DNA of 46,012 bases from an uncultured Clostridia bacterium (GTDB taxonomy: Bacteria > Bacillota > Clostridia > Lachnospirales > Lachnospiraceae), in the NCBI GenBank assembly GCA_946629525.1, contig CAMOXU010000007.1, forward strand, positions 1-46,012. Reading direction: 5' to 3'. A program made the translations under genes and the position numbers. The notes below the pieces were generated by a model. That model made no database searches and was not told the DNA's origin. It saw only the letters and a program-made list of their open reading frames with translations. Positions 39,727 through 43,794 of the stretch are shown here, one piece after another. Positions within the stretch are counted from its first letter, which is position 1; every line of letters begins with the position of its first letter.

Positions 39727-39743
39727 TGTTACGGAAATGTTAC
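39727..39743 (+). promoter_or_regulatory. WalR-like box upstream of 3D-domain gene 1
   Basis: TGTTAC-N5-TGTTAC fits the WalR (YycF) consensus TGTWAH-N5-TGTWAH exactly. It ends 41 nt before the -10. WalR activates cell-wall hydrolase genes in Firmicutes. Confidence 0.6.
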
Positions 39744-39781
39744 GCAGATTCGTTTTTTTTCTTTCATTTTGGTAAAGGGCA

Positions 39782-39790
39782 TGCTATAAT
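39782..39790 (+). promoter_or_regulatory. Extended -10 promoter of 3D-domain gene 1
   Basis: TGCTATAAT, a perfect TGnTATAAT. The ATG is 114 nt downstream. No clear -35, as expected for an activator-dependent promoter. Confidence 0.6.
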
Positions 39791-39903
39791 CTCTTCCAAA
39801 GAATAGCGAAAAGATGATTGAACGGCTGCATGGCAGGCGTTCTTGAATGCACTCTTTTGACGCTTTGGCTTTTTCAACACCCATTTTTAGAAGGAGTACA
39901 GGT

Positions 39904-41340
39904 ATGCGCAGGAACAAAATTGTCAGTATCGTACTGGCTGCTGCCCTTACCGTGTCGCAAGCCGCAGTGCCTGCATTTGCAGATACACAGGCGGAAATTG
40001 CGGCAGCAGAGGCTTCGAAAAATGAAGCCCAGAGCAGTCTCGACGAGACGCAGAGCGATATCAACAGTCTCCAGACTGAAAAAACAGAGCTTGAGACTTA
40101 CCTGAATGAACTGAATACGCAGCTTACGCAGCTTTCTGCGGATCTCACATCGATCAACGACAGCATGATCGGAAAGCAGGTCGAGATCGAAATCACGCAG
40201 GTCGCAGTCGAGCGGGCCAGGACCGATGAGCAGGCCCAGTACAACGCGATGAAGACCCGTATCAAGTACCTGTATGAGAACGGGAGCGCGGATTTTTTCA
40301 CGACGCTTCTCGAAGCGAAGAGCTTTTCCGAACTTTTAAATAAGGCATCCCAGATCATAGAGATGACGAAGTACGACCGGAAGAAGCTTCAGGATTACAA
40401 GGCGGCGAAGGCAGTCGTCGAGGAGCAGGAAGCGACGCTCGTCGCTGAGCAGCAGAGCCTTGCAGCGCTGAAGACGGAGCACGAGACGAGGAAGACTGAG
40501 GTGGAGAACCTGGTCGCCACGACGGACGCGAATATCGCCCAGTATTCTCAGAATATCAGTGCGGAGGAGCTCGCGGCATCGAATCTCACGACGAAGATCG
40601 AGGAACAGAAGAATCTTCTCGCCGGACTTCAGGGCCAGCTCGCCGCGGAGGAAGAGGCGAGACAGCAGGCCGAGCAGGCAGCCGCTCAGGCAGCGGCATA
40701 TGCGGCCCAGCAGTCAGCGGAGCAGGCAGCGCGTGAGCAGCAGGCGGCGGTAGCAGCGGCAGCCCAGCAGGCAGCGGAGCAGGCTCAGCAGCAGGCAGCA
40801 GCGGAAGCGGCGGCAGCTCAGCAGGCAGCGGCGGAAGCGGCAGCAGCCCAGCAGGCAGCGGAGGCGGCGGCAGCACAGCAGGCGGCAGCGGAAGCGGCGG
40901 CAGCTCAGCAGGCAGCGGCAGAAGCGGCGGCAGCGGAGCAGGCTCAGCAGCAGGCAGCAGCGGAAGCGGCGGCAGCACAGGCGGCGGCCGAAGCGGCAGC
41001 CGCTCAGGCAGCGGCAGAGGAAGCAGCCCGCCAGGAGGCAGAGCAGCAGAGCTCTTCCGGCGGCACGTACCTCGGAACCTTTAAGATCACCGCTTACTGC
41101 AACTGCGCAAAGTGCAACGGTGTTGCAGGCAGGGCGACGGCGAGCGGAAGAATGCCGGTCTCGAACCACACGGTCGCCATGGGAGGCGTTCCCTTCGGGA
41201 CACAGCTCCTGATCTTCGGAACAGTCTACACGGTCGATGACCGCGGGACACCGTACGGCCATGTCGACATCTTCTTTGATACACACGAGGAGGCGCTGAA
41301 TTTCGGTCTCACTTATGCGGATGTCTATCAGGTGGGCTGA
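39904..41340 (+). CDS. Secreted PcsB-like coiled-coil protein with C-terminal 3D domain
   Basis: 478 aa. A signal peptide (MRRNKIVSIVLAAALTVS...AFA) precedes a long coiled coil (about 28-240) like the PcsB/CwlO N-terminus: SSLDETQSDINSLQTEKTELE and YLYENGSADFFTTLLEAKSFSEL. Residues about 245-385 are almost only Ala, Gln and Glu in AAAEAAAAQQ-type repeats (a flexible linker). The last 85 form a 3D domain: TAYCNCAKCNG, GGVPFGTQLLI and VDDRGTPYGHVDIFFDTHEEAL with its three Asp. 3D domains belong to peptidoglycan-cleaving enzymes (as in YocH and RlpA/MltA-type lytic transglycosylases). AAGGAG lies before ATG 39904. A terminator follows at 41365. Confidence 0.9.
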   Translation: MRRNKIVSIVLAAALTVSQAAVPAFADTQAEIAAAEASKNEAQSSLDETQSDINSLQTEKTELETYLNELNTQLTQLSADLTSINDSMIGKQVEIEITQVAVERARTDEQAQYNAMKTRIKYLYENGSADFFTTLLEAKSFSELLNKASQIIEMTKYDRKKLQDYKAAKAVVEEQEATLVAEQQSLAALKTEHETRKTEVENLVATTDANIAQYSQNISAEELAASNLTTKIEEQKNLLAGLQGQLAAEEEARQQAEQAAAQAAAYAAQQSAEQAAREQQAAVAAAAQQAAEQAQQQAAAEAAAAQQAAAEAAAAQQAAEAAAAQQAAAEAAAAQQAAAEAAAAEQAQQQAAAEAAAAQAAAEAAAAQAAAEEAARQEAEQQSSSGGTYLGTFKITAYCNCAKCNGVAGRATASGRMPVSNHTVAMGGVPFGTQLLIFGTVYTVDDRGTPYGHVDIFFDTHEEALNFGLTYADVYQVG

Positions 41341-41364
41341 GAAATCGGACAGAGAGGAATATAG

Positions 41365-41395
41365 AGCGGACAGTGCGGGGCGCTGTCCGCTTTTT
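41365..41395 (+). terminator. Terminator of 3D-domain gene 1
   Basis: AGCGGACAG pairs with CTGTCCGCT around a GC-rich loop, followed by TTTTT. Confidence 0.85.
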
Positions 41396-41512
41396 CAAGC
41401 TTTCTGCCCGGTGCAGAATAAGATCTGCTTCGTCCCCTTCAGAGTGGAAACACACCTTTATTTCAGCTTCCGCCAGTCTCCCGCCTGCTCATAAAAAAGT
41501 TTAAAAAGAGGG

Positions 41513-41541
41513 TTGACACCGGGAGGGCTTTTCTATATAAT
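41513..41541 (+). promoter_or_regulatory. Consensus promoter of tRNA-Pro
   Basis: Perfect TTGACA at 41513-41518, a 17-bp spacer and perfect TATAAT at 41536-41541. The tRNA begins 40 nt later. Confidence 0.9.
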
Positions 41542-41581
41542 CACTATTGTTGTGCAGAACGAATGAGTTCTGAACACGAAT

Positions 41582-41655
41582 CGATGCGTGGCTCAGTTTG
41601 GTAGAGCGCTGCGTTCGGGACGCAGAGGTCGCAGGTTCAAATCCTGTCGCATCGA
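41582..41655 (+). tRNA. tRNA-Pro (anticodon CGG)
   Basis: 74 nt. Acceptor arms CGATGCG and CGCATCG pair fully; D stem GCTC/GAGC; anticodon stem CTGCG/CGCAG with loop TTCGGGA, anticodon CGG; T stem GCAGG/CCTGT with loop TTCAAAT; discriminator A. CCA is not encoded. It has its own consensus promoter and terminator. Confidence 0.95.
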
Positions 41656-41656
41656 C

Positions 41657-41696
41657 GAAAAAAGAACGGACACCGCGAGGTGTCCGTTCTTTTTTC
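41657..41696 (+). terminator. Terminator of tRNA-Pro
   Basis: AAAAAAGAACGGACACC pairs with GGTGTCCGTTCTTTTTT around a CGCGA loop. Confidence 0.9.
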
Positions 41697-41731
41697 GTTA
41701 ATATGAAAGCACTTGAACTTGCGGCTTCTGC

Positions 41732-41858
41732 ACGAGCGAACATTCGGGACGTGGAGGGCGCAGAACGTCCAGTGGACGTTCGCTTTGCGCCGACCGAAGC
41801 GGAGCGGAGACGAAATGTCCAGTGGACATTTCGCCGGTTCAGCTCCTGTCGCATCGAC
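41732..41858 (+). pseudogene. Degenerate tRNA-Pro copy interrupted by two hairpins
   Basis: GAGCG (41734) and TTCGGGACG (41743-41751) resemble the D and anticodon arms of the tRNA next door, and GGTTCAGCTCCTGTCGCATC (41836-41855) resembles its T arm and 3' end. Between them (about 41764-41833) lie two perfect hairpins with AGT loops, AACGTCC-AGT-GGACGTT and AAATGTCC-AGT-GGACATTT. It cannot fold into a tRNA. Confidence 0.5.
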
Positions 41859-41870
41859 TTAGGAAATAGC

Positions 41871-41903
41871 AGGGCTTCGGGAAACCGAGGTCCTTTATTT
41901 TTT
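41871..41903 (+). terminator. Terminator after the tRNA-Pro fragment (left copy)
   Basis: AGGGCTTCGG pairs with CCGAGGTCCT around GAAA, followed by a T-rich run. It recurs at 42719-42748. Confidence 0.7.
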
Positions 41904-42098
41904 GCCCGAGTTCTGGAAATGTTCTAACATTTTCCGTTTACTTCCACATAAACCCAGTTGAAGGATCTGTCAAAAATGGAGAATGATACAACGAACACGA
42001 AAACCCGTATAATTGCAAGAGCCAACAACATAGGCTATAATAATTATCATAAAGTTCCATACCGCAGGTAATACACAGTTCAGTGGGAGGGATTGGAT

Positions 42099-42335
42099 AT
42101 GAGGCATGAATACTGTGAAAAAAACGGGATTATTATTACATATTCGGATACAGATGTTGCGTTTGAGGAACGAGACACAGCTATGTCAATTCTGATTTCG
42201 AATGACGGCGTGATTTTGCATAACAATTTTATAGCAGACCCGAAAAAGACGCAGTATTTTCTGGATGATTTCCAGAGAATATATCCTACGGTCTGCTACT
42301 TTAGGTCTCTGAACCAGATGGGAGATGCAGTGTAA
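42099..42335 (+). CDS. Small protein, partner of DUF4160 protein
   Basis: 78 aa, no family recognised with confidence. The sequence is polar with a short conserved-looking core (GIIITYSDTDVAFEERDTAMSILISNDGVILHNNF). GGGAGGG lies about 8 nt before ATG 42099. The stop overlaps the DUF4160 start by one base, so the two are coupled. DUF4160 genes commonly pair with a small DUF2442-type or similar partner, and this protein occupies that place. Its base composition is AT-rich relative to the flanks, as expected for a transferred cassette. Confidence 0.65.
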   Translation: MRHEYCEKNGIIITYSDTDVAFEERDTAMSILISNDGVILHNNFIADPKKTQYFLDDFQRIYPTVCYFRSLNQMGDAV

Positions 42336-42610
42336 TGCCAGTATATGTCAGATACAATGGATGGTATGTCTATTTTTGGACAAATGAAAATGATGAGCCG
42401 ATTCATTTTCATATCGCAGAGGGAAAGCCGGCTGAGAATGCTACAAAGATCTGGGTCTTAAGCAATAACTCATTCAGATTAGCAAATAATAATAGTCAAG
42501 TGCCTCCGAAAATACTTCGACATATTCTTGCTGTTATGCAGGCATCCATTGATGAGTATAAAACTCTTTGGCTTCAATATCAAAAGACTATCAGGTATAT
42601 TGATCGATAA
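42335..42610 (+). CDS. DUF4160 domain-containing protein
   Basis: 91 aa. MPVYVRYNGWYVYFWTNENDEPIHFHIAEGKPAENATKIWVLSNN is typical: a short beta meander with the H-F-H-I motif that corresponds to the PPHVHV strand of the family. The C-terminal helix (ILRHILAVMQASIDEYKTLWLQYQKT) is also conserved. The family is found in two-gene modules suspected to be toxin-antitoxin-like, though that is not proven. It forms an AT-rich cassette with the gene before it, flanked by repeats of the tRNA-Pro 3' end. Confidence 0.85.
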   Translation: MPVYVRYNGWYVYFWTNENDEPIHFHIAEGKPAENATKIWVLSNNSFRLANNNSQVPPKILRHILAVMQASIDEYKTLWLQYQKTIRYIDR

Positions 42611-42655
42611 ATAAGTTCCGGGAAAGAGAACATCTGATGACTTGTGCACGAAAAA

Positions 42656-42706
42656 CGCATTCGGTCCGGGCCACAGAGACCCCGGATTCAAATCCTGCCG
42701 CATCGA
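42656..42706 (+). repeat. tRNA-Pro 3'-half fragment downstream of the cassette
   Basis: CGCATTCGG (42657) is like the anticodon region, and GGATTCAAATCCTGCCGCAT (42684-42703) matches the tRNA T arm and acceptor. With the terminator at 42719 it repeats the left copy at 41836-41903 imperfectly. Confidence 0.65.
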
Positions 42707-42718
42707 TGCAGATAGTAC

Positions 42719-42748
42719 AAGGGCTTCGGGAGACCGAGGCCCTTTATT
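42719..42748 (+). terminator. Terminator after the tRNA-Pro fragment (right copy)
   Basis: AAGGGCTTCGG pairs with CCGAGGCCCTT around GAGA, followed by TATT. It is near identical to the left copy. Confidence 0.7.
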
Positions 42749-42759
42749 CTGTCTGGATA

Positions 42760-42807
42760 AAACAGCGGGAACCGGCACATCTGTTGTGCCGGTTCCCGCT
42801 GTTTTTT
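42760..42807. terminator. Strong terminator between the cassette and 3D-domain gene 2
   Basis: AACAGCGGGAACCGGCACA pairs perfectly with TGTGCCGGTTCCCGCTGTT around TCTGT, followed by TTTTTT on the plus strand. It lies 3' of both converging units. Confidence 0.85.
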
Positions 42808-42840
42808 CATGAGTACAGTTCAACTTGCCTGATTCTTTTC

Positions 42841-43707
42841 TTATTCTTTTATAAGGTAGACATCCGCGCTGCCCATTCCGAAATCAAGGGCTTCCTCATG
42901 CGAGTCGAAGAAGATATCGACGTGGCCGTAAGGTGTGCCGCGGTCCTCCACGGTATAGATGGTGCCGTCTATGAGAAGCTTCGTTCCGAAGGGAACGCCG
43001 CCCATGGCGACCGTGTGTCCCGATGTCGGCATGACACCGCTGGCGGTCGGATTTCCCGCCGAGCCGTTGCATGCTGCACAGTTGCAGTATGCGGTGAGCG
43101 TGAATGTCCCGAGATATTCGGCCGAAGCGAGCGCTTTTTCCCTGGCAGCGGCCTCTGCCTCGGCTTCTGCTTTCGCTTTGGCGGCAGCCTCTTCCTCTGC
43201 AGCTTTCTTTGCCCGGTCTGCTTCTGCCTGCGCTGCTTCTTCGGCTTCTGCAGCAGCCTGAGATGCCTCCTCGCGGGCCGCCTCTGCGATCGATGCGGTC
43301 ATTTCCACGGTCTGCATGTCATTCGCTGCGGCTACAAGGTCTGACGCCGCTCTGGCATTCTCTGCATGAAGGACTGCGGAATCTGCCGCTTCCTCGATTT
43401 CTTCTCCCTCAGTCTTTTCAGCACAGTCCAGGGCTTCATCGGCAGCCTCTTCTGCCGCATCCGCTGCTTTTGCCGTTTCTGTACGGATTTTCATGAGCAC
43501 GGCTTTCTCTGCCTCCTGCTTCTCCTCTAATGAAGTGAAGAGCCTGTTCTGATCACTCTCACCGGATCCGGCAGCAGCTCCTGATTCATATCTTACTGCG
43601 TTTATACCGGCAGCTGTATCTATGATGCCTGCAGATACAGGGTTTGCCGTGAAAACGGTAAACATAGATGCAGCAAGCAAAATACTTGTTATTTTTTGGT
43701 TAAGCAT
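42841..43707 (-). CDS. Secreted 3D-domain protein (paralogue)
   Basis: 288 aa. A signal peptide (MLNQKITSILLAASMFTVFTANPVSA) leads to a low-complexity helix rich in Ala, Glu and Lys (about 60-200) and a C-terminal 3D domain about 85 residues long, nearly identical in motif to the other gene: TAYCNCAACNG, MGGVPFGTKLLIDG and VEDRGTPYGHVDIFFDSHEEAL. It lacks the PcsB-type N-terminal domain and has a shorter coil. It presumably cleaves peptidoglycan outside the cell. AAAGGAG precedes ATG 43707. It has the same promoter design as its paralogue 2.4 kb away. Confidence 0.88.
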   Translation of the reverse strand: MLNQKITSILLAASMFTVFTANPVSAGIIDTAAGINAVRYESGAAAGSGESDQNRLFTSLEEKQEAEKAVLMKIRTETAKAADAAEEAADEALDCAEKTEGEEIEEAADSAVLHAENARAASDLVAAANDMQTVEMTASIAEAAREEASQAAAEAEEAAQAEADRAKKAAEEEAAAKAKAEAEAEAAAREKALASAEYLGTFTLTAYCNCAACNGSAGNPTASGVMPTSGHTVAMGGVPFGTKLLIDGTIYTVEDRGTPYGHVDIFFDSHEEALDFGMGSADVYLIKE

Positions 43708-43732
43708 ATAATTCGCTCCTTTCAAGGGAGTG

Positions 43733-43741
43733 ATTATAGCA
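43733..43741 (-). promoter_or_regulatory. Extended -10 promoter of 3D-domain gene 2
   Basis: Leftward TGCTATAAT, the same nonamer as in front of 3D-domain gene 1. The ATG is 25 nt downstream of its last base. Confidence 0.6.
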
Positions 43742-43777
43742 CTGACATTAAAAAAAGAAAGGGGAATTTAACAATTT

Positions 43778-43794
43778 GTAACTTTTCTGTAATA
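43778..43794 (-). promoter_or_regulatory. WalR-like box upstream of 3D-domain gene 2
   Basis: Leftward TATTAC-N5-AGTTAC: a near match to TGTWAH-N5-TGTWAH with one change in each half-site, 37-39 nt upstream of the -10. A further TGTTAA stands 4 nt downstream. Confidence 0.45.

Follow-up and report, generated by a model that had tools for sequence, protein, structure and literature searches.

In the genome of an uncultured Lachnospiraceae bacterium, two genes for predicted exported proteins with 3D-like C-terminal domains share a promoter arrangement in which a direct repeat (termed box here) precedes an extended −10 element at a nearly constant distance. Both genes lie in the window, the 46,012-nucleotide stretch analysed, which represents contig C7 of a 2.73 Mb assembly (163 contigs, 82% complete); a contig scan returned two near relatives, and the nearest named relatives were uncultured Lachnospiraceae/Clostridiales assemblies labelled RUG, which we take to stand for rumen. 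The boxes are probably operators of a regulator of the OmpR/PhoB family, most likely the WalR-like one of an operon with the gene order comEA-like, regulator, kinase, GerMN lipoprotein, and comEC-like. Support for the cis part of this WalR-regulon claim is strong, and that part extends far outside the window: the boxes, their spacing, their conservation, and their association with cell wall genes were all observed, as was the presence of a regulator. For the trans part, action of a regulator of the L035 type (see below) on the boxes would be the best inference.

A preliminary description of the sequence had placed boxes and extended −10 elements before both genes, and these are present at the places given (Table 1). 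Its distances, 41 nt (gene 1) and about 37 to 39 nt (gene 2), agree with the 41 and 39 nt from the box end to TATAAT and need a small correction for the TGC of the extended element, which is reached after 38 and 36 nt, respectively; counted from the box start, TATAAT follows after 58 nt (gene 1) and 56 nt (gene 2). As described, neither promoter has a good −35 element, the best hexamers agreeing with TTGACA at three of six (gene 1) and two of six positions (gene 2). The known WalR site is given as TGTWAH-N5-TGTWAH in the available parts of PMC4168254. Box 2 deviates from it by two mismatches on the minus strand and fits exactly when read on the plus strand (43777, TGTAACttttcTGTAAT); besides this reading and box 1, the window has no exact match on either strand. 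Among 1000 shuffles, 2 to 4 reached the score of box 1 and 32 the score of box 2. At the place of the possible third half-site next to box 2, TGTTAA was also found in three relatives (L071, L072, and L046).

Some match to gene 1 was found in 93 of 99 genomes, the own genome among them. From 30 gene-1-type loci returned, 26 were kept (four with matches starting beyond residue 30 were dropped), and 11 upstream regions including the own one were obtained for gene 2 (L075 was left out because of a contig end). A box of the form TRTTAM-N5-TRTTAC, or a near form, starts 56 to 58 nt before a TGnTATAMT-like element in 25 of the 26 gene-1-type and in 10 of the 11 gene-2-type upstream regions, the own ones included. 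The arrangement was not found in gene-1-type L020; the eleventh gene-2-type upstream region, L032, failed through a wrongly chosen start codon, and its box is present on re-reading. Each of the 35 conserved promoters scored above 200 of 200 dinucleotide shuffles of its own sequence, a test that is partly circular because the scoring patterns were fixed after the upstream regions had been viewed; the genome-wide box scans given below are independent of the box-to-−10 spacing. With the 35 promoters aligned on the −10 element, the half-sites proved strongly conserved, and the alignment also showed an A-rich stretch, TG-n-TATAAT, and, at the −35 position, CTT (invariant in 25 of 25 gene-1-type promoters). 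With at most four of six matches to TTGACA in 34 of the 35, the poor −35 element is a property of the whole promoter group. Within the genus, orthologues have thus kept the boxes in their upstream regions.

In the own genome, TGTWAC-N5-TGTWAC had four matches at three places and the reversed pattern none. The strict box (TRTTAMRNAAATGTTAC) gave 23 matches in 42 genomes of the genus versus 0 for the reversed pattern, and reading of the downstream genes assigned 14 of them to gene-1-type genes (including L049, at which the contig ends and which was assigned by promoter identity) and three to gene-2-type genes. Single matches precede genes for a PcsB-type protein with a different C-terminal domain, an L,D-transpeptidase-type protein (PF03734), and an exported YARHG protein (PF13308); a further one, in reversed orientation, precedes a PcsB-type gene by approximately 250 nt, and two precede a gene that is presumably nitroreductase-like. 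A wider pattern gave 36 matches versus 2 reversed; its 13 additional matches comprise six gene-1/gene-2 sites and seven sites before genes without an evident wall role.

The association extends to the family. In a sample of 299 Lachnospiraceae genomes from 298 genera, 116 strict boxes were found in 94 genomes versus 9 reversed matches (both our own counts), and the control with a 6-nt spacer gave 11 matches. Five of the 114 strict matches outside the own genome were inside a long open frame versus 8 of the 11 altered-spacer matches, as determined with similar, not identical, rules. A scorable neighbour gene (ATG, ribosome site, 400 nt) was present at 103 of the 114 loci, the other 11 being dropped, and 59 of the 103 loci adjoin a gene of a wall family (NlpC/P60 30, M23 9, SleB-type 9, CAP 6, 3D 3, LCP 2) as judged by profile searches that were built from the neighbour proteins themselves and that count CAP and LCP proteins, which are not proven wall hydrolases. 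The altered-spacer control gave 1 of 11, and 59 is probably a lower bound because several of the remaining opposite-strand genes are cut off at the end of the retrieved sequence. In agreement, Pfam assigned NlpC/P60 to 12, M23 to 9, and Hydrolase_2 to 6 of 59 same-strand genes, and NlpC/P60 to 17, CAP to 4, Hydrolase_2 to 3, LCP to 2, and 3D to 1 of 30 opposite-strand genes, the latter tally being biased upwards as these were 30 of 60 genes (20 picked as exported-looking with no clear gene opposite, 10 with longer flanks). Conservation of the boxes before wall-hydrolase genes thus exceeds what chance would give, with counts in genus and family far above those of the control patterns.

Two kinds of box placement were distinguished among the family genes by a promoter finder that retains the best-scoring promoter, which inflates −35 quality in this analysis. 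Counted from the box start, the best −10 element fell at +45 to +49 in 10 of the 44 same-strand genes, of which 8 are NlpC/P60 genes and most have TTGACA right behind the box, and at +56 to +58 in 4 of 44, including both same-strand 3D genes; the two spacings are about one helical turn apart. It fell at −35 to −5 in 18 of the 44 same-strand genes and in 28 of 47 genes on the opposite strand, so that the box extends over the likely start site. The latter placement, which the preliminary description had missed, also occurs on two further hydrolase genes of the own genome. The C4 and C42 proteins, the two further own-genome matches of the gene 1 search, combine a PcsB coiled coil with NlpC/P60, and their genes carry TGTTAC-N5-TATTAA at or just past a −10 element (TGTTACgcattTATTAA, 19 nt after TATAGT, and TGTTACggaaaTATTAA, overlapping CATAAT, respectively), with box scores equalled by 2 to 4 of 1000 shuffles. 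Because the box sits over the start site of these other hydrolase genes, repression beside activation is suggested. What surprises most in this picture is that endopeptidases are likely repressed.

The own genome codes for nine OmpR-type regulators. The best candidate for a regulator acting on the boxes is the conserved L035 (contig C101), which had the top YycF score among the nine and for which YycF was the best-scoring family. In a comparison of its DNA-binding domain with 57 solved chains, VicR (2hwv), YycF (2d1v), and WalR (2zxj) ranked in the top five, the other two being named merely response regulators. For the L035 kinase, WalK was the best family, covering the catalytic core only (250.9 bits). 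L035-type regulators were found at 77–100% identity in 37 of the 42 genus genomes (one partial); of 100 family genomes sampled, 95 have one. The gene order given above was read in G033 and G025, in which a lipoprotein with two GerMN stretches is encoded between the WalK-like kinase and the comEC-like gene (L142, 3225–4244, and L143, 3329–4279, respectively). Of the walRK operon that the preliminary description had proposed to look for, a WalR-like regulator/kinase pair exists; the neighbours known from wal operons, walH, walI, and walJ, were not among the regulator neighbours in these two genomes, and Pfam found HisKA and HATPase_c, not PAS, in the G033 kinase.

Binding of the boxes by a different OmpR-family regulator of the own genome, such as the ArlR-like L040 or the SaeR-like L036 (beside a mutS2-like gene), is unlikely. 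Nine OmpR-type proteins offer a choice, relatives of L036 and L040 are likewise widespread in the genus, and L036 reaches 255 bits with the YycF model (its best is MtrA, 260 bits); however, the DNA-binding domains of L036 and L040, with SaeR and ArlR as best solved chains, are nearer to these than to WalR, and the box agrees with the known WalR consensus (PMC4168254, available parts). Distinctly less probable still is that the regulator is better called MtrA-like, as part of an actinobacterial MtrAB-LpqB-type system, with the boxes as sites of the MtrA type. A GerMN domain is present in LpqB, and here a GerMN lipoprotein gene directly follows the kinase gene. Genes for regulator, kinase, and lipoprotein lie together in both cases, and MtrA sites, as described in the available parts of PMC6265350, are direct repeats with a similar core; L035, however, scores higher with YycF (276 bits) than with MtrA (245 bits), and its DNA-binding domain reaches 92.5 to 87.5 bits with WalR-type chains versus 77.5 with MtrA. 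That the repeats are A+T-rich promoter elements, or alike by shared descent without function, and no operators at all would fit the lack of a clear box excess in the own genome by itself and the origin of many compared upstream regions from a single genus, and is very improbable in view of a box-to-−10 spacing constant within 3 nt across 35 promoters and of a box excess across 94 family genomes that is gone with one added spacer base.

Several results weigh against assignment of the boxes to a WalR-like regulon. In the own genome, TRTTAH-N5-WRTTAC gave five matches versus four reversed, i.e. no clear enrichment; a single genome is therefore weak evidence, and relatives were compared for this reason. 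The scan proposed in the preliminary description thus revealed enrichment at wall genes in genus and family, not clearly in the own genome. Some boxes of the genus precede genes without an evident wall role, and 44 of the 103 family loci had no wall-family assignment. The reversed 6-nt-spacer pattern gave 35 matches in the family (our own count), above the 11 of that control itself, so backgrounds vary several-fold; even this background is well under the 116 strict-box matches. Outside the genus, 1 of 20 PcsB-type upstream regions attained the full activator arrangement (totals were 18 and 17 for one each, and the others had at most 15 or no candidate). A gene-2-like upstream region from outside the genus, L076, was also without it. 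L035 fell short of the NCBIfam YycF equivalog cut-off (276.3 versus 340 bits), and membership in the WalR/YycF family is therefore not claimed; its kinase remained under the WalK cut-off of 725 bits. The WalRK regulon put forward in the preliminary description is accordingly supported in part, by the conserved boxes before wall genes and the presence of a WalR-like regulator/kinase pair, and not by the scores against these two cut-offs. Autoregulation was rejected, as TRTTAM-N5-TRTTAM had 0 matches in 39 regulator loci (134 kb).

The products of gene 1 and gene 2 had been described as 3D-domain proteins, which holds in the weaker form of 3D-like. Neither reached the Pfam cut-off of PF06725 (3D domain), which had zero matches anywhere in the own genome; the C-terminal domains of both share 76% identity in the alignment, and gene 2 aligned with the L275 protein (35% identity, 93 amino acids, E 8e-16). 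PF06725 was matched by 1 of 30 scanned proteins, a set that includes the L275 protein, which presumably is the matching one. Comparison of the gene-2 C-terminal domain with solved structures gave no convincing match. The PcsB-type part of gene 1 was confirmed, with 31.8 bits versus a PF24568 cut-off of 27, and from our reading of its N-terminus its product appears to be exported.

Table 1. Features of the two promoter regions in the window
Feature	Position	Strand	Basis
Box 1, TGTTACggaaaTGTTAC, upstream of gene 1	39727..39743	+	Exact match; conserved in gene-1-type upstream regions
CTTTC at −35 position of gene 1	39761..39765	+	Sequence reading; position counts
Extended −10 of gene 1, TGCTATAAT	39782..39790	+	Sequence reading
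Gene 1, predicted exported, PcsB-type coiled coil and C-terminal 3D-like domain	39904..41340	+	PF24568; C-terminal domain alignment
Gene 2, predicted exported, C-terminal 3D-like domain	42841..43707	−	Open reading frame, ATG at 43707; alignments
Extended −10 of gene 2, TGCTATAAT	43733..43741	−	Sequence reading
Possible third half-site TGTTAA, 4 nt past box 2	43768..43773	−	Sequence reading
Box 2, TATTACagaaaAGTTAC, upstream of gene 2	43778..43794	−	Conserved in gene-2-type upstream regions

Between gene 1 and gene 2 (41582–42718), the 3′ end of a tRNA-Pro (CGG) gene at 41582–41656 recurs behind the gene in two degenerate copies (41815–41869 and 42664–42718), which also have 62 nt in common at 79%. 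The second and third copies flank a pair of small open reading frames, the second DUF4160 (PF13711) and the first unmatched; the ensemble is possibly a remnant insertion at the tRNA. Elsewhere, the box upstream of the nitroreductase-like gene was kept in L003, L053, and L154 (own genome and two near relatives); where read, this gene is divergent from a presumably ilvE-like gene, and wall function does not explain its box. A box (TGTTACgaaaaAGTTAC) was also found upstream of a presumably flavodoxin-like protein in L150 and L153 (relatives G022 and G020). At L001 (G000:C6:43606-43623), a stretch between genes, a GTAAC repeat matches the box on both strands and adjoins sequences resembling what we take to be DnaA boxes.

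The mechanism that we propose for control by the WalR-like regulator takes binding, the sign of control, and the signal as postulates. Two phosphorylated regulator subunits would bind both half-sites on one helix face. The box before the two 3D-type genes, centred approximately 61 nt before the presumed start, may then aid RNA polymerase where an extended −10 element is combined with a poor −35 element, activation being read from the geometry. At other promoters, where this box lies over the start site, repression would result; in the own genome, the two PcsB-NlpC/P60 endopeptidase genes have this placement. The net result would be a switch by which an active kinase exchanges one group of wall-cutting enzymes for a different one. 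For Lachnospiraceae in general, we tentatively suggest, at slightly below even odds, that a single WalR-like regulator, its gene accompanied by one for a GerMN lipoprotein, operates a position-coded switch, in which boxes starting approximately 47 to 49 or 56 to 58 nt before the −10 element activate 3D-type and some NlpC/P60 genes, start-site boxes on either strand directly repress many NlpC/P60, M23, SleB-type, and CAP genes, and endopeptidase control is largely inverted versus Bacillus.

YocH of Bacillus is a 3D protein. According to the available parts of the respective papers, the WalR targets of B. subtilis comprise the activated genes yocH, lytE, and cwlO and the repressed genes iseA and pdaC (PMC4478028, PMC7299342), and direct-repeat-binding regulators act as activators when bound upstream of −35 and as repressors at sites that overlap promoter and start (PMC4168254). 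The B. subtilis system thus resembles the one proposed here in its box type, in having wall hydrolases and a 3D-type protein among the targets, and in control of either sign by one regulator; it differs in that the kinase here is without PAS and the regulator has GerMN lipoprotein and comEA/comEC-like neighbours instead of walHIJ, and in that WalR activates D,L-endopeptidases, whereas start-site boxes are present here on many NlpC/P60, M23, SleB-type, and CAP genes. C. difficile WalRK-WalA shares the PAS-less WalK and a lipoprotein gene in the operon, and WalR overproduction lowered expression of an NlpC/P60 gene with two putative sites; WalA, however, has a beta-propeller lyase domain instead of GerMN, and the sites are predicted, with no fixed promoter spacing found in the available text (PMC9210968). 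S. mutans VicR operators are likewise direct repeats with an N5 spacer, as footprinted, with a consensus refined to TGTWAHA-N4-TGTWAHA; VicR has another target set, and the parts available gave no fixed spacing to a TG-extended −10 element (PMC4168254). Among the titles and abstracts on WalR in Lachnospiraceae, none was found that describes such a regulon.

Lachnospiraceae are dominant gut and rumen bacteria. If the position-coded switch is true, the position of the box would allow up- and down-regulated wall-cutting enzymes to be told apart in uncultured genomes, and the way in which an essential envelope switch was rewired between Bacillus and Clostridia would become apparent.

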